37,806 bases of DNA from Kiritimatiellia bacterium (GTDB lineage Bacteria > Verrucomicrobiota > Kiritimatiellia > RFP12 > UBA1067): NCBI GenBank assembly GCA_017525225.1, contig JAFXTB010000074.1:1-37806 (forward strand), read 5' to 3'. Of this stretch, positions 1 to 8,351 are shown one piece after another (the stretch's first letter is position 1; the number at the start of each line of letters is the position of its first letter). The notes under the pieces are model-generated. The model saw only the letters and a list, made by a program, of their open reading frames with translations, searched no databases and had not been told where the DNA came from. The translations under genes were made by a program, and so were the position numbers.

Positions 1-1926
1 ATGCATGAGGAACATGCGCTCGTTCCAGAGCGCGTTCGCTATCGCGGCGCACGTCTCGAGATAGGCGTCCTCGTTGGGAAGGTCGTAGTCGTCGCCGAAC
101 GCCTCGCCGGCCGAGCCGAGCCTCTTGTCGGCGTAGCTCACCCTCCTGTGCGCGCCGATGCCGCCGTTGAGATGCAGCTTCCTGCCGACGACGTTCTCCC
201 AGATGGCATCGATGGCCGTAAGGTACGACCTGTCGCCCGCGAGCGCCGCGACATCTGCCATGCCGCAGTAGAGGTAGCCTGCGCGCACGGCGTGGCCTAT
301 CGCCTCGCGCTGCTCCACCACCGGCAGGTGGTCCTGGAGGCTGGCGTTCCACGTGGCGCGCAGGTCCTTCCGCCCGCGCATGTCGAGGAACGTCTTGGCG
401 AGCGCGAGATACCGCCTTTCGCCGGTGACGCGGTAGAGCTTGCATAGGGCCAGCTCGATCTCCTCGTGTCCCGGCGCCTCCTTGATCTGCGTGGGACCGA
501 ACCCGAACGTGCGGTCCACGAGATCGGCGCTCCTGATTGCCACATCGAGAAGATTGCGCTTGCCGGTGGCCTGCAGATACGCGACCGCCGCCTCGTACAT
601 GTGGCCCACGTTGTAGAGCTCGTGGCTGGCGCCACAGTCGCTCCAGCGGGTGGGCCCCATCCTGCCGTACTGCATCTTGCCGTTCTTGACCCCGTAGTTG
701 AAGTGGAGCGTGCGCGCGGTGTATAGGTATCCATCGGGCTCCTGCGCCTTGGCGATCTGCGCGATGAGACGGTCCAGATATTTCTCAAGCGCGGGGTCGG
801 GGTGGGTGGCGAGCGTGTACGCGGCGCCCTCTATCACCTTGTATACGTCTGAATCGTCGAACGGAATCCCCTTGAACGTTCCCCACTCCCGCCTGGCGGC
901 GGCCTCGAAGTTGGGGATGCGCGCGAGTTCGCACTTCTCGAAGTCGGTCTTCACCGTCACGAGCCGGTTCGTCTCCAGGCGCGGACGCCAGAAACCGCCC
1001 GTGAACGAGACTTCCGTCATCTCCACCGGCCGAACCGGATAATCATTCGCGGAGTCGCGTTCCAGGATGCCGCGTATCGAGGCGACCTCCTCTGGCGTAA
1101 GGCCGCATTCATGGATCACATAATGGGCGATCTTGTCGCGCAACGTCGCGCCGGGACGCTTCTTCATCTCTTTCACCATCGACGCAAACAGAAATGGCTT
1201 AGAGTCCACCCTCACACGCGAACCAAAGGCGCCGCCGAAGGTCGTAAGCTCGTAGTCTATCGAGAGGTCGGTCTCGCTTACGCCGCACAACCCCTCAAGC
1301 AGAAACGCAAGCGATCCCGTTCGGTCCGCGCCTCCCCAGCAATGGAAATAGATCGGATAGTTGGACCTGTCGGCAAACACGCGCAACAGCTGCGCCACGC
1401 ATACGGTATTGCTCAGAAATTTCATGTAGCCCGCACAGCTGATGCGCACCAGCCTGGCGCCGGGGACGGGCGTCTCGTCCGGCGTGGGGCTTTCGCCGCG
1501 CGCCCTCAGGTCGAGATCCGTCTTTATCCCCAGCCGCTTTGCAAGCGTATCTGCGCCTGCCGGCGTTATGAAAAGCCCGTGGCTGCGCTTCTGCCCGGGC
1601 CGGAAGCAAGCCGGATTCGTCTGGCAGTTGGGTTCGGCCCCGCGATACGCCAGCCCCGTCTTCAATCCTGTCCACCCACCGATGTCGCGGAAATTCCTTG
1701 TGCCGTCCACATTCACCCAGCCTACAGGCGAGGGCCCCGGCACGTCTTGGCGGATGCCGCCTGCGCGTTCCTTGAAGAGACGCACTATGGAATTGGTGTA
1801 GGCGTCATCCGCCGCGTACGCCGCCCGCGCGCTGCGTATGAAGTCGCCCACTACGTCACCGGGCGGAGATGGCGGACAGTTGCCGAGTGCTGTGCAGCAA
1901 AACAGGATGCCAAGGAGTTTTTTCAT
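1..1926 (-). CDS. Secreted tyrosine phosphatase / GH127 glycosidase fusion (3' end missing)
   Basis: The frame is open from an ATG at 1926 to the window edge (642 residues, C-terminus missing). An export signal (MKKLLGILFCC) is followed by a Y_phosphatase3-type domain: NFRDIGG near residue 83 and the P-loop HCWGGADRTG with nucleophile Cys196 and Arg202 (CX5R). From about residue 296 it reads as GH127 (DUF1680, beta-L-arabinofuranosidase family), opening with TGGFWRPRLETNR. GEAF (Glu608) and ETC (Glu624, Cys626) have the spacing of the acid/base Glu322 and zinc ligands Glu338/Cys340 of Bifidobacterium HypBA1. The nucleophile cysteine would lie beyond the edge. AAGG lies 9 nt before the ATG. 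It is the last visible gene of a minus-strand operon, 64 bp after the oxidoreductase gene. The P-loop suggests an active phosphatase. The sugar substrate is unknown; GH127 relatives have other specificities. Confidence 0.85.
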   Translation of the reverse strand, partial: MKKLLGILFCCTALGNCPPSPPGDVVGDFIRSARAAYAADDAYTNSIVRLFKERAGGIRQDVPGPSPVGWVNVDGTRNFRDIGGWTGLKTGLAYRGAEPNCQTNPACFRPGQKRSHGLFITPAGADTLAKRLGIKTDLDLRARGESPTPDETPVPGARLVRISCAGYMKFLSNTVCVAQLLRVFADRSNYPIYFHCWGGADRTGSLAFLLEGLCGVSETDLSIDYELTTFGGAFGSRVRVDSKPFLFASMVKEMKKRPGATLRDKIAHYVIHECGLTPEEVASIRGILERDSANDYPVRPVEMTEVSFTGGFWRPRLETNRLVTVKTDFEKCELARIPNFEAAARREWGTFKGIPFDDSDVYKVIEGAAYTLATHPDPALEKYLDRLIAQIAKAQEPDGYLYTARTLHFNYGVKNGKMQYGRMGPTRWSDCGASHELYNVGHMYEAAVAYLQATGKRNLLDVAIRSADLVDRTFGFGPTQIKEAPGHEEIELALCKLYRVTGERRYLALAKTFLDMRGRKDLRATWNASLQDHLPVVEQREAIGHAVRAGYLYCGMADVAALAGDRSYLTAIDAIWENVVGRKLHLNGGIGAHRRVSYADKRLGSAGEAFGDDYDLPNEDAYLETCAAIANALWNERMFLMH

Positions 1927-1990: not shown

Positions 1991-4840
1991 CTACGGCGTT
2001 TCCAGCACGTCGATGCCGGATACGGAGCCGTAGCGGTCGGGCGAATCAAGCCGCCAGACGACCTTGCCGTCCTTGTCGAACTCTATCACCTGCCAGCCCT
2101 TGAAGCTGTCATCGGGACCATGACCTGTCCAGTTGGCCACATATATGTGTCCGTTCGGCTGCTCCTGCAGCTGGGCGTAGAACACGTTCTTCTTGCCGCC
2201 CTGGTCCGCCGTCCATGCCGAGACGAGCCTGCCGTCGCCGTCGAAGCGCAGCAGCTGCGCGCCATAGCCAGCGCCGGCCCAGTAGCCCTTCCCCGCGCGG
2301 TCGGGGATGACCTCGAAGAGGTTGCGGCCCTTGGGCATCTCCACGTTGCGCAGGATCGCGCCGTCGGCCTCCGGCGCGTCGCCTTCCGGCAGTCGGCAGA
2401 TGGCAAAGCCCTTCTCGTACGCCAGCACGAGGTCGCCGTTTGCCAGCCGCGTCATCGTGCGCCCATACCAGAGGCCGCGGAACACAGCGGTCGAGACGAG
2501 GACGCGGTCCTTCGAGAAACGGCGCACGAGTATCCTGTGGTCCTTCTTGGAGCCGCGCGGGTTCACCGAGGCGAGGAATCCGCCATCGGGCAGGTCGCAC
2601 ACGCTCGTAACAATGTCGAGCGAGTCGTGGCGGAACGTGTCGACGATCCTGTGCGCCTTCAGATCGGCCACCATGAACCCATTCTTGCATACGAACCTGT
2701 ACAGGCCGTCGCCGATGCGCGTTAGATTCCAGATCGGCTTCTCGGCGTCGATCGAGAAGCACGCCTTCGGGTCGGCGGAGTCGTAGACATGCAGCTTCTC
2801 CCGCGATTCGTCCGCGAGTACGAGCCGCCGCCGTCCATCCTGCAGCTGAGGATGCTCGTTGCGGTGGACGAATCCCTTCGCCTTTATGTCCGCCGCCTTG
2901 TCCGGCGAGATCGGCCCTTTCGGCGGATAGATGTGCGCCCAGCCGCGCCGGTTGAAATCGTACTTCTCGCCCAGGCCGTTGCTGTATCCGTGGAACGTCG
3001 GAAGCGGCGGCACGCCGGCGGCCATCCGGGCCTTGAGCGCATCCAGATGCCGCGAATGCACTTCGCGCGGAGTGGCACCCTTCTCCTTGCAGATCGAAGC
3101 GGCCAGCCCCACCACCTCGCCGAGCATGCCGAGCGTGCGCTGTACGCGCACGGCGGCGAAGGCCACGTGCGAGCAGCTGATGTCGCGGCCGGCCAGGAAG
3201 AGGTTCGCGCAGTCGCGCGCGTAGAGGCAGCGGTACGGCACCGGGTAGTCCGCCCCGAATCCGCGATGGTAGGCCGCGCTGCGGAACGGTTCCGCGAACT
3301 TGCGGAGGTTCTCGGGGTCGGGGAAGTGCAGATCCACGTCCCACGTGATCGCGGCGGTGGCGTCGGGATGGCGCACCTGGTTCTCCAGGTCGTTCTGCGT
3401 AAGCACGTAGTCGCCAACCGTCCGGTAGCTCTCGCGCTTCCCGCCGATCGGTGATATCCAGGAGAAGGCGACGCAGGAGTATTCGGAACGGCGTGGCGAA
3501 CGGTTCTTCACCCAGTTCCAGTTTGAGAAGATGGCCAGGAGCCCATAGTCCCGGATGCGTTCCGCGTCGTCCGCCATGTCGCGCAGGAAGCCCGTCTCCT
3601 GCTCCCACGAGCCGCGCGTCTGGTAGTAGCCGGTGGAATCGTCGATCGGCAGCGCCCACGCCGATATGTCGGGGAACGGTCGGGGCGACGGATGCTTCTG
3701 GGTGAGCCACTGCACGGACATCCCCATCACCTGCCTATCGCCCGTCTCCGGCGCGCTGATCTCGTTGAAGCGGCTGCGCGCCTCGCGTCCGTACATCACC
3801 TCGCATCCGGCGAGGCGCGAGAGCACCGCATCGCCCGTGGCATCGCAGAACAGCCGCGCCCGGTGGCGCGTGACGGCGCCGGTACGCGTGTCGCGCGCAA
3901 GCACGGCCGCGATGCGGTTGGTCTCGGCGCCGTCCATCTCCACGGCGAAGACGTACTGTTGGAAGCGCAGCGTCGGCGAGACGCCCGGCACGCCGCCCCA
4001 GTACAGGTCGCGCGCGTGGAACGCCGCCTCCTTGCGCGCATCCTCGTAGTAGGAGGCCGGAAGCGGGATGCCGTAGCCGAAGATTGGCTGGATCTCCTCC
4101 ACCACGCGCCCCAGCGCCGGATAGGGCTGCGCGTGGATGCGCCCGCCAAGGCCCACGCGCACCTCGGATGAATTGCATCCGCCAAGCACCCCGCGGTCCT
4201 GCAGGAGAAGCGTGTCGACGCCGGAGCGCGCGGCGGCAAGCGCCGTGCACGACCCCGCGAAGCCGCCGCCCACAACCACGAGGTCGTAGACCTTCGAATC
4301 GTCCTTGACGGCTGGAGCCGGCGGATGTTCAGGCGGACGTGCCGATTGATCCACCGTAAGCCACAGCGCATCGCATCGGCCGTTGAATCCCGTCAGATCG
4401 TGGAGGGCGAGACGGACCGACCCCGCGGCAAGATCCACCTCGCCAGCCCTGGCCCAGTGCCAGGCCGCATCGCCGCCGCCCAGCTCTGCCGCGAGCGGCA
4501 CTCCGTTCACCAGCACCGTGAAGCGTCCGGCGGCAACAGGCCGCCCGTCCGCGCCGGGACGCGGCCACACGGCGTTCCAATTGCGCGTGCGCGCCCACAC
4601 CACGTAGCGTCCGGTCGCCGGCACCTCCACCTCCGTCTCGGCATCGGCTACCGGCACTCCATACCCGTGGGCCATCAGATAGCTGGAACCGATCTGGCGG
4701 GTGGACTGCGTCTCGACCGTCCAGCCGCCGAGGCTCCGGAAGCCCTCGCACTCCACACGCAGCGATCCGGGCTGGACGCCGCCGCACGCGGCGAGGACAG
4801 TCGCCGCGAGCAGCCCTGAAGCAAGCGATACCGTCTTCAT
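1991..4840 (-). CDS. FAD-dependent oxidoreductase lipoprotein with C-terminal propeller-like domain
   Basis: 949 residues. The N-terminus is a lipoprotein signal with lipobox LAAC (Cys19), placing it in the periplasm or on the outer membrane. Residues about 25-165 form a beta-rich, carbohydrate-binding-like module (ATGRYVVWARTRNW). The FAD_oxidored (PF12831-type) domain starts at about 183 with the Rossmann motif GGGFAGS (191-197) and GGCNSSEVRVGLGG (220-233); a second FAD motif, LFLAGRDIS, is near residue 540. Residues about 640-949 look like a beta-propeller of repeating strands. The family is common in PVC-group polysaccharide-degradation loci; substrate and electron acceptor are unknown. 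The start lies 8 nt after the isomerase stop, without a clear Shine-Dalgarno, suggesting translational coupling. Family is clear, reaction is not. Confidence 0.85.
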   Translation of the reverse strand: MKTVSLASGLLAATVLAACGGVQPGSLRVECEGFRSLGGWTVETQSTRQIGSSYLMAHGYGVPVADAETEVEVPATGRYVVWARTRNWNAVWPRPGADGRPVAAGRFTVLVNGVPLAAELGGGDAAWHWARAGEVDLAAGSVRLALHDLTGFNGRCDALWLTVDQSARPPEHPPAPAVKDDSKVYDLVVVGGGFAGSCTALAAARSGVDTLLLQDRGVLGGCNSSEVRVGLGGRIHAQPYPALGRVVEEIQPIFGYGIPLPASYYEDARKEAAFHARDLYWGGVPGVSPTLRFQQYVFAVEMDGAETNRIAAVLARDTRTGAVTRHRARLFCDATGDAVLSRLAGCEVMYGREARSRFNEISAPETGDRQVMGMSVQWLTQKHPSPRPFPDISAWALPIDDSTGYYQTRGSWEQETGFLRDMADDAERIRDYGLLAIFSNWNWVKNRSPRRSEYSCVAFSWISPIGGKRESYRTVGDYVLTQNDLENQVRHPDATAAITWDVDLHFPDPENLRKFAEPFRSAAYHRGFGADYPVPYRCLYARDCANLFLAGRDISCSHVAFAAVRVQRTLGMLGEVVGLAASICKEKGATPREVHSRHLDALKARMAAGVPPLPTFHGYSNGLGEKYDFNRRGWAHIYPPKGPISPDKAADIKAKGFVHRNEHPQLQDGRRRLVLADESREKLHVYDSADPKACFSIDAEKPIWNLTRIGDGLYRFVCKNGFMVADLKAHRIVDTFRHDSLDIVTSVCDLPDGGFLASVNPRGSKKDHRILVRRFSKDRVLVSTAVFRGLWYGRTMTRLANGDLVLAYEKGFAICRLPEGDAPEADGAILRNVEMPKGRNLFEVIPDRAGKGYWAGAGYGAQLLRFDGDGRLVSAWTADQGGKKNVFYAQLQEQPNGHIYVANWTGHGPDDSFKGWQVIEFDKDGKVVWRLDSPDRYGSVSGIDVLETP

Positions 4841-4848
4841 GCCGGAGG

Positions 4849-5367
4849 TCAGTCCCGTATGGCTTCCACCTTCTTGCGCGCGTCCTCCAGGAACGGCGCG
4901 AGCGGCTCAAGCGTCTCGGTGAACCTGGTGTCGAGGAACGCATCGGCGGCGGCGTTGGCCATCATCTCGCCCCAGATCATCTGGCCCATGCAAAGGACGT
5001 TCGCATCGTTGATCGCTCGGCACATCTTCGCGGCGAAGACGCTCTCCACCACGGCGGCGCGCACGCCCTTGAAGCGGTTGGCGATCATGCTCATGCCCAT
5101 GCCCGTGCCGCAGAACAGGAACGCCCTCTTCGCTTCGCCCCTCTGCATCGCGCGGCAGACGTCCACCGCGCTCTCGAAATAGGGCTTCTCCTTGTTGGCA
5201 TCGGTCGCGCCAAGGTCCTTCACGGCGAAGCCACGCTCCTCGAGGTGCTTCACCACGGCGTTCTTCAGACCCACGGCGAACGGATCCGCCGCCACCAGGA
5301 TCGTCTCCTTCGCCCCGCACACGCATGCGGCGGCCAGCGACACGCCTGCAACTACTGCCTTCTTCAT
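4849..5367 (-). CDS. RpiB/LacA/LacB-family isomerase-like protein with a signal peptide
   Basis: 172 residues. The ATG at 5367 is chosen because AAAGGAG lies 8 nt upstream. Residues 1-19 (MKKAVVAGVSLAAACVCGA) form a typical export signal. The fold then begins where cytosolic RpiB begins (ETILVAAD at about 21-28) and keeps the phosphate/active-site loop FCGTGMGMSMIANRFKGVRAA with the family's catalytic cysteine. Two positions deviate from E. coli RpiB: the DH pair of the first loop reads DP, and the histidine of QHNDTNVL reads Ile in AINDANVL. Ordinary ribose-5-phosphate isomerase activity is therefore doubtful. RpiB and LacAB enzymes are normally cytosolic, so an exported form is odd. It lies between the SIS gene and the oxidoreductase gene in one operon. 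It could be a sugar-binding or epimerase-like derivative. Confidence 0.8.
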   Translation of the reverse strand: MKKAVVAGVSLAAACVCGAKETILVAADPFAVGLKNAVVKHLEERGFAVKDLGATDANKEKPYFESAVDVCRAMQRGEAKRAFLFCGTGMGMSMIANRFKGVRAAVVESVFAAKMCRAINDANVLCMGQMIWGEMMANAAADAFLDTRFTETLEPLAPFLEDARKKVEAIRD

Positions 5368-5419
5368 ACTGTCTGCTCCTTTCAACTCAATGACATGATC
5401 ATTTGCACAAGCCGCACTT

Positions 5420-7108
5420 CTAGCGCAATGCCGCCAGCGCCACCTGGACGGGCGAAGGCTCCTCCCTGCTGGACCAGTCCTGCGACGCGATCCATTCCTG
5501 CGCGGAGAAGATGCGCTGCGCGGCCTCCTCGTACGATACGCCGCCAAGCTCCACGAGAAGGCGGATGCACCTGTCTACGAGCTTCTTGTTGCTCATCGAC
5601 ACCCAGCTCATCCAGTTGCCGGCAATCCGCCCCATCGCCGCCATCGTTCCGGTGGACAGGCAGTTGAACGCGAGCTTGACGGCAAGGTGCTTCCATATCT
5701 CAAGCGGAGAATCCGCAATCGGGAAGTCGAAGCGGAACTCCCTCCTCTCCGGCCACGCCGCCGCAAGGCGCTCCGCGGCCGAAACGAAATCGGGCGTCTC
5801 GCCAGGCACGCGCAGCACCACCGCCGCCGCGCGGGACACTCCCTCGATGCGCTCCGGCGACGGCTCGTTGCCGATCATGTACGTGACCAGGTCGCCATAG
5901 CCGATGGCCGGCGGATGGTCGATGAAGCACTGCGGCATGCCGAGCGAACGCGCGTCCTCCGCCGTGAACTCCAGGCACCTCGGCCGGCGCCGCATCATCT
6001 CGGTCCAGCATTCCTCGGTGGGATGCAGCGGATTCTTCACAAACGCCCAGCTCTGCGAGTAGCCCTTCTCCCGGCTCGACCGGATCGGCGGGATCATGAA
6101 CGTCGGCGCGCGCTCGGTGTTGTCGGTGAAAAGGTCGAGCATGCACTTGTCGGCGAGGTACGTGATCTGCCCGCCCGCCTCGTAGACCCCCTTCTCGAAC
6201 TCTATGGCCGTTACCAGCCCGGCGCGGCCGGCGGGCGATTCAAGCCCCGCGAGCAGCCTTTCGAACGCCACGGTGTAGTCCGCCGCCGTCTCCTTCGCAA
6301 AGCGCGGCATGATCCGGCAGAGCGCCGCCTCGAGCGCGCACGAGCAAAGGACCTGCTCGGAACTGGTAGCCTGCATGCGCGTGGAACCGGCCACGGACAT
6401 CGCCCCGCAATAGATGTCGATCACCGTCACCTTCGGGTTGTCTATCGCCTCACGGCAGCGGTCAAGATGGCCTCGCAGCAGATCCGCCGGGTTGTTGAAC
6501 ACGAGGAAGCATCTCGCGCCGTGCTCGGCGGCATACTTCAGGGTGCCGAGCACGGACGATGTCTCGCCGCCTTCCGTGATTGCCACGAACGTATCGCCCT
6601 CGCCGACATCGAGCGCCGCAGCCTGGCGGCGCCCGCCCTCCGCGAAGTCCTCGAAGAACTCCACCGAGCGGATAAGCGCGAAATCGCCGCCCGTCATGAT
6701 CGAGGCAGAGCGGTCGGCAAGCTTCAGCTCATCGGGCGAAAGCTCGGCGGCGCGGCGGTGGAAGAAGTCGCGCCACATTGATTCAAGGAGTATCGAAAGC
6801 CGCCCTGTGGCGCCGCAGCCGGAGAAGACGATGCGCCCCTTCTGGCCCGTCACGGACTCGACCATCGAATCCACCAGCTTCGCGAAGCGCCGCCCAGCGA
6901 ACACATGCCGCATCGTGATGGGCATCTGCCTGTCGCCGCGCTGCAGGCACTGCACGCCCGCGAGCGTCGAACGCTTGAAGTCCTCCTCCAGCGTGGCGGT
7001 TATCGGGTTCGACTGCTCCGTGGGCAGGAATCCCAGCTGGAACTGCTTTTCGTTGTCTATGAAGTCGCGGGCCTTCTGCCGCGCCGTATCCGTTATGGCC
7101 ATTTCCAT
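5420..7108 (-). CDS. Double SIS-domain protein of the MurQ/GCKR superfamily
   Basis: About 562 residues with no signal peptide, so cytosolic. The first SIS domain has SGCGATGRLSILLE (compare the GxGTSGR motif of MurQ and glucokinase regulatory protein) and ITEGGETSSV. Mid-protein GSTRMQATSSEQ matches the substrate-loop region. The C-terminal part (LAFNCLSTGTMAAMGRIAGN, then SNKKLVDR) matches the end of the second SIS domain and the start of the UBA-like tail in MurQ/GCKR. At this length it resembles two-SIS GCKR-like proteins rather than MurQ (about 300 residues). A sugar-phosphate-binding, lyase or isomerase role is likely; etherase activity is unproven. An upstream ATG at 7147 would overlap the preceding gene. 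The ATG at 7108, with GAGAGGG 11 nt upstream, is preferred. Confidence 0.8.
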   Translation of the reverse strand: MEMAITDTARQKARDFIDNEKQFQLGFLPTEQSNPITATLEEDFKRSTLAGVQCLQRGDRQMPITMRHVFAGRRFAKLVDSMVESVTGQKGRIVFSGCGATGRLSILLESMWRDFFHRRAAELSPDELKLADRSASIMTGGDFALIRSVEFFEDFAEGGRRQAAALDVGEGDTFVAITEGGETSSVLGTLKYAAEHGARCFLVFNNPADLLRGHLDRCREAIDNPKVTVIDIYCGAMSVAGSTRMQATSSEQVLCSCALEAALCRIMPRFAKETAADYTVAFERLLAGLESPAGRAGLVTAIEFEKGVYEAGGQITYLADKCMLDLFTDNTERAPTFMIPPIRSSREKGYSQSWAFVKNPLHPTEECWTEMMRRRPRCLEFTAEDARSLGMPQCFIDHPPAIGYGDLVTYMIGNEPSPERIEGVSRAAAVVLRVPGETPDFVSAAERLAAAWPERREFRFDFPIADSPLEIWKHLAVKLAFNCLSTGTMAAMGRIAGNWMSWVSMSNKKLVDRCIRLLVELGGVSYEEAAQRIFSAQEWIASQDWSSREEPSPVQVALAALR

Positions 7109-7124
7109 GATGTCTGCGTCCCTC

Positions 7125-8351
7125 TCAAAGATCCCCGATGATGACACCCGGATCCTCCTTCACGATCTCGGACCCGATGTCCCAGAAGCTGCGGCAGTCC
7201 ATCAGCTTCAGCTCCCCCACGCCCAGCCTCTCGCGGCGTATCTCGAGCCCGCGCCTGACCGCCTCGCGGAAGAAGCGCGCATTCTCGGCGCGGGTGTAGA
7301 ACTCGCGCGGACCCGGCACCGCGTCCGGCACGAACTTCCACGTGATCGATCCGTCCGCAAGGCGCACGTCGTAGTAGGACGGCCCTCGGCCGGGCAGGCC
7401 GTAGTGCGTCTCGAAGCAGTGTACGAACGACACGCGGCCGATGGAGCTTCCGAAGAGGAGTATCTTGCCGCCCATGTCCTTGACCACCATCGGGCACGAA
7501 TTGTCCGAGAACGGCGCCTCGTCCTCCACCTGCCTCGAAAGCACCTCCGCCGCGCGCGGCCCCAGCCCCGCCCACGAATGAGAGATGTGCACGCCCCTCG
7601 GCGCGTCCGGCCAGAGGCGCATGAACTCCAGGGGAAGTGTGCCTACCCAGCGCACGGCCTCGCTCGCCCTGTCGCGGAAGTCGCTCGGACGATGGTCCCA
7701 CCGCTTGCTGATCCCGTTCAGGAAGCACTCGGAGCGCTGGAACGTGGGCACGAAGAAGTTCCCCTCGGGACCGATCGTCTCGATGATCGCGTCCAGGATC
7801 GTCTTCGCCCCTCCCTCGATGCGCCCGCATGCGGAGAGCGCCGAATGGACGAGCAGTGTGTCGCCACGCCGGACGCCTACCGCCGCGAGCGCCGCCAGGA
7901 TCTCGTCCTTGCCGACGGTCGGGTCGCCGCTGCGGTCGCGCTTCTGCGGCAACTCCGGGACGATCGCCGCCAGCGTTCCCTCCGATCCTCCAGATGACTC
8001 CAGCCGGATCTTCAACGCGCCACCGGCGGCGAGCGTGCGCAGGCGTACGCCCGAACGCGGCGATACGGCCAGGACTGCAAGACCGCCCGGTTCGCCGCCG
8101 ACGGTGAACGCGGGTATCTCGTCCGGCCGCTCGAAACGGTCCGGCGTGAAGTCGCTCACAAATCCAAGCACGCCGCGCGCGGTGAACGCGGCGACCTGCA
8201 CCGCCCCTGCCGGAGTCTCCGGCTCAAGCACCACGATTGTCCCCCTTGCATCCTCGCCTGCAAGGAACTGCGCCTCCGTGAGCGCCTTCGCCGTGAAGCC
8301 ATCCTGCGGCAGAGGCGAAAGCGCGCGAAAGTTGAAGCTCATGTCCGCCAT
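7125..8351 (-). CDS. AAC(3)-family acetyltransferase with N-terminal PA-like domain
   Basis: 408 residues from the ATG at 8351, 5 nt after the beta-helix gene stop. Residues about 150-408 are an Antibiotic_NAT/AAC(3) domain: a DEILAALAAVGVRRGDTLLVHSALS opening written here only as its key part RRGDTLLVHSAL, then FFVPTF, and a GKILLFGSSIGRVSFVHCFE core. Residues about 25-140 (GTIVVLEPETPAG, GVLGFVSDF, IPAFTV, LRTLAAGGALKIRLE) read like the protease-associated (PA) domain usually found in M28-type peptidases. The frame is continuous, so this looks like a true fusion. No signal peptide is visible. Many AAC(3) homologues outside pathogens act on sugars or other amines, so the family name does not establish drug resistance. 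The operon context favours an amino-sugar or glycan-related substrate. The PA assignment is moderately sure. Confidence 0.8.
   Translation of the reverse strand: MADMSFNFRALSPLPQDGFTAKALTEAQFLAGEDARGTIVVLEPETPAGAVQVAAFTARGVLGFVSDFTPDRFERPDEIPAFTVGGEPGGLAVLAVSPRSGVRLRTLAAGGALKIRLESSGGSEGTLAAIVPELPQKRDRSGDPTVGKDEILAALAAVGVRRGDTLLVHSALSACGRIEGGAKTILDAIIETIGPEGNFFVPTFQRSECFLNGISKRWDHRPSDFRDRASEAVRWVGTLPLEFMRLWPDAPRGVHISHSWAGLGPRAAEVLSRQVEDEAPFSDNSCPMVVKDMGGKILLFGSSIGRVSFVHCFETHYGLPGRGPSYYDVRLADGSITWKFVPDAVPGPREFYTRAENARFFREAVRRGLEIRRERLGVGELKLMDCRSFWDIGSEIVKEDPGVIIGDL

Follow-up and report, generated by a model that had tools for sequence, protein, structure and literature searches.

The Fusion Gene and Its Surroundings

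The stretch of DNA analyzed here (the window, 37,806 nucleotides) is a complete contig of a 4.2-Mb genome assembly of 180 contigs from a Kiritimatiellia gut bacterium. Its left end carries the 5' part of a gene on the minus strand (1..1926), 642 of 921 codons. The frame starts with an ATG at position 1926, is free of stops to position 1, and passes off the contig end. The remainder was found on another contig of the same genome, C61, at bases 142-981. The start of C61 is an exact 141-base copy of window positions 1-141 in reverse orientation, and this overlap is consistent with adjoining nodes of an assembly graph. When the two are joined, the translation is 921 residues long, with a stop at C61 base 981.

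The initial annotation had described a single frame joining a phosphatase to a GH127 glycosidase, and two Pfam domains were indeed identified in it. The N-terminal leader, MKKLLGILFCCTALGNCPPS (1867..1926, minus), was judged by eye to be a signal peptide and is possibly a lipoprotein signal (LGNC). The MptpB-like phosphatase domain (Y_phosphatase3, PF13350; residues 72-286; 1069..1713, minus) was matched at an E-value of 1.9e-20, with 74.3 bits against a curated cut-off of 22.2. The phosphatase end then meets the mature GH127 start at LERDSAN (residues 287-293; 1048..1068, minus). The first part of the GH127 beta-L-arabinofuranosidase domain follows (residues 294-642; 1..1047, minus), with the remainder on C61. 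The match to the GH127 catalytic domain covers residues 306-641 (E-value 5.8e-82, 276 bits against a cut-off of 24.9). These E-values exclude chance as the source of both domain matches. No CBM was matched in the Pfam search of the protein. The architecture of the fusion protein is new and its folds are known.

The neighboring genes are on the same strand. An FAD-dependent oxidoreductase (PF12831; 1991..4840, minus) lies upstream, 64 bases from the fusion gene. It is followed by a LacAB/RpiB sugar-phosphate isomerase (PF02502; 4849-5367, minus) whose N-terminus, MKKAVVAGVSLAAACVCGA, resembles a signal peptide; export would be unusual for a sugar-phosphate isomerase. A GKRP-like SIS-domain protein (PF22645; 5420-7147, minus) is encoded three genes upstream of the fusion. 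A search for anti-phage defense genes with PADLOC gave no match.

The GH127 Domain

The glycosidase matches solved GH127 enzymes over most of its length, namely 6ex6 (E-value 6.9e-181), the Geobacillus enzyme 4qjy (9.9e-123), and HypBA1 3wkw (1.3e-90). In HypBA1, the reference enzyme of the family, the key residues are E322, E338, C340, C417, and C418, and the nucleophile is a zinc-bound cysteine (PMC10728902). The fusion protein has E608 (codon at 103-105), E624 (55-57), and C626 (49-51), all on the minus strand. Their spacing equals that of E322/E338/C340, with the two Glu residues 16 apart and the Cys two after the second. On the translation, these three residues, together with Cys196 and Arg202 of the phosphatase, proved to be as first annotated. 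The nucleophile expected beyond the left edge was also located, as the motif WFGCSCCPVN with C692/C693 is present on C61.

By its Pfam score, its matches to characterized enzymes, the Glu/Glu/Cys residues, and the CC pair within the shared CxCC motif, the protein is, as judged from sequence, a full member of GH127. The C-terminal module would then be an active retaining GH127 beta-L-arabinofuranosidase with zinc-bound C692 as the nucleophile. It differs from known GH127 enzymes in having a phosphatase domain in place of its own signal peptide. Some GH127 orthologues carry a C-terminal F5/8-like domain, which the fusion protein lacks. In two loci of relatives (L229, 609-5855; L230, 3642-7889), GH127 is itself part of fusions, with GH2 and DUF4838 or with DUF5696/GH101-like domains.

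The Phosphatase Domain

The AlphaFold model of the phosphatase has a pLDDT of 88.7. The closest fold is that of MptpB (1ywf; Z 19.0, 187 residues, rmsd 2.3), and the next is the Clostridium difficile PTP (8dhi; Z 18.4). Lower matches are the inositol pyrophosphate phosphatases Siw14 and PFA-DSP1, followed by laforin (4r30; Z 10.5) and other PTP-fold enzymes. The P-loop, HCWGGADRTG (residues 195-204; 1315..1344, minus), contains the nucleophile Cys196, an in-loop Asp, and Arg202. C196 and R202 make up the CX5R motif of the cysteine-based PTP superfamily. Across 50 aligned relatives, five loop residues (His, Cys, Gly, Asp, and Arg) are invariant. Because of this invariance, the domain is under selection as an enzyme, and a dead phosphatase domain was rejected on the same ground. 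The domain would act as a cysteine-based phosphomonoesterase of the MptpB fold, with Cys196 as the attacking nucleophile, Arg202 as the phosphate-binding residue, and the in-loop Asp as the general acid.

The MptpB-like atypical lipid phosphatases are defined (Beresford 2010, from PMC3091653) by their fold, by phosphoinositide phosphatase activity, and by the P-loop HCXXGKDR, whose Lys and Asp are strictly conserved. MptpB acts on phosphoinositides, with the Asp as a catalytic residue and the Lys as the one that contacts the phosphoinositide (PMC3091653). The fusion protein has this fold and retains the Asp, but the Lys is replaced by Ala. Ala is found at this position in most of 79 relatives. 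From its sequence, the domain is best classed as a PF13350 member and not, by that family's definition, as an MptpB-type lipid phosphatase. Its chemistry should be the same as that of MptpB and its substrate should be different. In L215, L216, L219, L227, and L233, which come from G067 and a related family, the P-loop is a further variant, HCxxGQDRT, with Gln at the MptpB Lys position.

Characterized MptpB-like enzymes (Mycobacterium tuberculosis PtpB 1ywf, Listeria Lmo1800, and C. difficile PTP 8dhi, all PF13350) act on phosphoinositides and phosphopeptides. They share with the domain described here the fold and a CX5R P-loop with an in-loop Asp. MptpB is secreted, and the fusion protein is likewise predicted to be, from its leader. 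The differences are the Lys to Ala change and the attached glycosidase. The initial annotation had named the domain a tyrosine phosphatase, but the MptpB/C. difficile PTP fold and the altered P-loop HCxxGADRTG are not those of a classical tyrosine phosphatase. The name is a family label and not a function.

The Junction

The two halves of the protein have separate relatives across the 115 family genomes. The GH127 orthologues, about 60 in number and most with 50-76% identity, have alignments that begin only at about residue 292 of the query. Phosphatase relatives align only up to about residue 290. The GH127 orthologues that were examined have their own signal peptide immediately before the aligned start, and the phosphatase orthologue of the same genus is a stand-alone protein of 315 residues. 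In the fused frame, there is neither a spacer or intergenic stretch nor a second signal peptide, and only LERDSAN stands between the domains. A base error or a lost stop codon could not yield this join because the spacer and the GH127 signal peptide are gone from the frame, although a deletion could. A sequencing error that joined two genes, which had been raised as a possible flaw, was rejected since no remnant of that spacer or signal peptide is left.

The junction sequence has no second match anywhere in the genome, no repeat lies at the junction, and no match was found in viral contigs. The tetranucleotide correlation across the junction (0.758) is on a par with that between two stretches within the window (0.763), and it is above the correlation with the relatives tested. 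A chimera is thus not supported by composition. Third-position GC is 0.74 in one half and 0.87 in the other, which fits two genes of unlike origin. The fusion is probably real, with the caveat that it is seen in a single assembly.

Fusions and Neighborhoods in Relatives

The exact pairing of this phosphatase with GH127 is rare. It was present in one of the 115 family genomes, and no second case was found in those genomes or among the 79 loci of the genome collection. The pairing had been thought unfamiliar, and to that extent the impression holds, but it is not an isolated oddity. It is one case of broad phosphatase-glycosidase fusing in this lineage. The genome itself encodes seven PF13350 proteins, including a GH36-like/phosphatase/GH78 protein of 1755 residues, a phosphatase with a PD40 propeller, and a metallophosphoesterase with a phosphatase. 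Immediately downstream of the gene for the first of these (L035, contig C69, 7817-13081), and in the same direction, is a GH127-family gene (4613-7783).

PF13350 was identified in 74 of the 115 family genomes. Fusion partners in the family are GH78, GH29, GH106, DUF4838, beta-helix, esterase with BNR, Exo_endo_phos, and calcineurin-like metallophosphoesterase domains. In other families of the phylum, GH5 is joined to the phosphatase, and in two loci (L220 and L223) the phosphatase is joined to CBM9. These fusions have the same phosphatase family, are secreted, and come from the same lineage or related phyla; they differ from the fusion described here in the partner. Partners other than glycosidases also include PD40 propellers, leucine-rich repeats, and very long repetitive proteins. 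In proteins of approximately 2000-3000 amino acids in L068, L069, L080, L087, and L101, a single phosphatase domain lies close to the N-terminus, and long stretches of further sequence come after it. The named relatives belong to Kiritimatiellae, Verrucomicrobia, Lentisphaeria, Clostridia, and one Planctomycetia record, and are mainly from herbivore guts.

In a tree of 115 phosphatase domains, the glycosidase partner types are on separate branches. Because of this separation, the fusion of phosphatase and glycosidase probably arose repeatedly. The phosphatase of the fusion protein is sister (100/100) to a stand-alone protein of the same genus in this tree.

An unfused version of the pair was also found. 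L146 has a stand-alone phosphatase gene of the same clade and, no more than about 20 bases behind it, a GH127 gene that starts with a signal-like sequence. The order matches that of the fusion. Genes for beta-helix, metallophosphoesterase, laminin-G, and GH2-like proteins belong to the same-strand run. In L152 and L155, a GH127 gene is several kb from the phosphatase with housekeeping genes between and after, and it was set aside as weak evidence. Among the neighbors of Clostridia phosphatases are GH28-like proteins, one GH29, and another phosphatase. In three Clostridia loci (L153, L159, and L165), the phosphatase belongs to the same clade, lacks an obvious signal peptide, and sits immediately downstream of a gene encoding about 530 amino acids, GH28-like in L153 and L159. 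This pair may be active inside the cell. The 52 genes that adjoin phosphatases have no dominant enzyme family and housekeeping genes are common among them, so the operon context alone leaves the substrate unsettled.

Proposed Function and Origin

The reading that is modestly favored is a secreted bifunctional enzyme, phosphatase and GH127, for phosphorylated glycans, that was joined by a deletion. The deletion would have linked a phosphatase gene to a downstream GH127 gene, so that the stop codon was lost together with the spacer and the GH127 signal peptide. The phosphatase would take phosphate esters off a carbohydrate chain, and the attached glycosidase could then trim it. A phosphorylated carbohydrate is suggested as the substrate because the partner families cleave linkages of rhamnose, fucose, arabinose, and glucan and include a carbohydrate-binding module. 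Removal of phosphate from glycans had been proposed at the outset. Both enzymes look intact and this reading has the best support. What the sequences show is the architecture, the intact catalytic residues, the recurrent phosphatase-glycosidase fusions, and the unfused pair; from these we infer the two activities, the glycan substrate, the order of action, and the deletion. We know of no phosphate-bearing substrate with beta-L-arabinofuranose. The glycan role may not extend to every member of the phosphatase family, given the partners that are not glycosidases. The mixed neighborhoods and the single occurrence of the GH127 pairing also count against this reading.

A less probable role is scavenging of phosphate from small molecules and lipids of the gut, such as inositol phosphates, phytate, and phosphoinositides. 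The link to glycosidases would then serve solely to hold the phosphatase at the cell surface or in plant debris. The fold is close to that of MptpB, which acts on phosphoinositides (PMC3091653), and to those of Siw14 and PFA-DSP1. The calcineurin-like and Exo_endo_phos fusions suggest processing of a phosphodiester and then a monoester. However, the phosphoinositide-binding Lys is Ala in most members, and the partners are mostly glycan enzymes, with the CBM9 domain included.

A true protein phosphatase is rather unlikely. It would act on Tyr, Ser, or Thr of secreted or host glycoproteins from which the glycosidase strips the glycans. PF13350 is annotated as a tyrosine phosphatase, and a bifidobacterial beta-L-arabinooligosaccharide system targets plant hydroxyproline-rich glycoproteins (PMC7263609). 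The rhamnosidase, fucosidase, and GH5 partners and the GH28 neighbors point instead to polysaccharides. Feed plants are also not known to offer extracellular phosphoproteins as a common substrate, which counts against a protein phosphatase.

Slightly more doubtful still is that these are two separate genes, joined either in a chimera of the assembly or by an accident of one strain that has no function. Its confinement to one genome of the family and the difference in third-position GC would agree with this. Against it are the in-frame join at the exact domain border, the repeat-free junction, tetranucleotide profiles as similar as those of two stretches within the window, and the similar fusions in relatives and in the same genome. 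Finally, the very many different partners are reminiscent of binding modules, but a non-catalytic binding or scaffold role is highly improbable because a dead domain would lose the Cys, Asp, and Arg that are invariant in 50 relatives.

The proposed glycan phosphatase has a parallel among eukaryotes. SEX4 is a glucan phosphatase of the PTP superfamily with a carbohydrate module. Laforin also combines a PTP-superfamily phosphatase with a carbohydrate module and acts on phosphorylated glucans (PMC3724922 and other papers). Both share with the fusion protein a PTP-superfamily phosphatase joined to a carbohydrate-related module. They are eukaryotic and intracellular, their phosphatases are of a different subfamily, and their modules are for binding, whereas the module of the fusion protein is a glycosidase. 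A PTP domain with a CBM, as in laforin and SEX4, is not found in the fusion protein; the CBM9 domains are in the relatives from other families. The phosphatase is best viewed as analogous to laforin and SEX4 and not as a relative of laforin. No phosphatase-glycosidase fusions of this kind were found in a literature search, a limited test with incomplete journal coverage, and the recurrent pattern is apparently undescribed.

A broader proposal, held more tentatively than the function of the single protein, is that the HCxxGADRTG clade of the MptpB fold (Kiritimatiellota, Verrucomicrobiota, Lentisphaerota, and Clostridia) could consist of bacterial glycan phosphatases that were repeatedly recruited as catalytic modules of glycosidases. 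Each natural fusion names a candidate linkage, and the proposal is therefore testable partner by partner. If the module acts on glycans, it would be a bacterial counterpart of the eukaryotic glucan phosphatases and would point to gut glycans with phosphate esters that glycosidases are unable to clear by themselves. If the broader proposal is true, phosphorylated glycans would be a regular and overlooked part of gut bacterial digestion.
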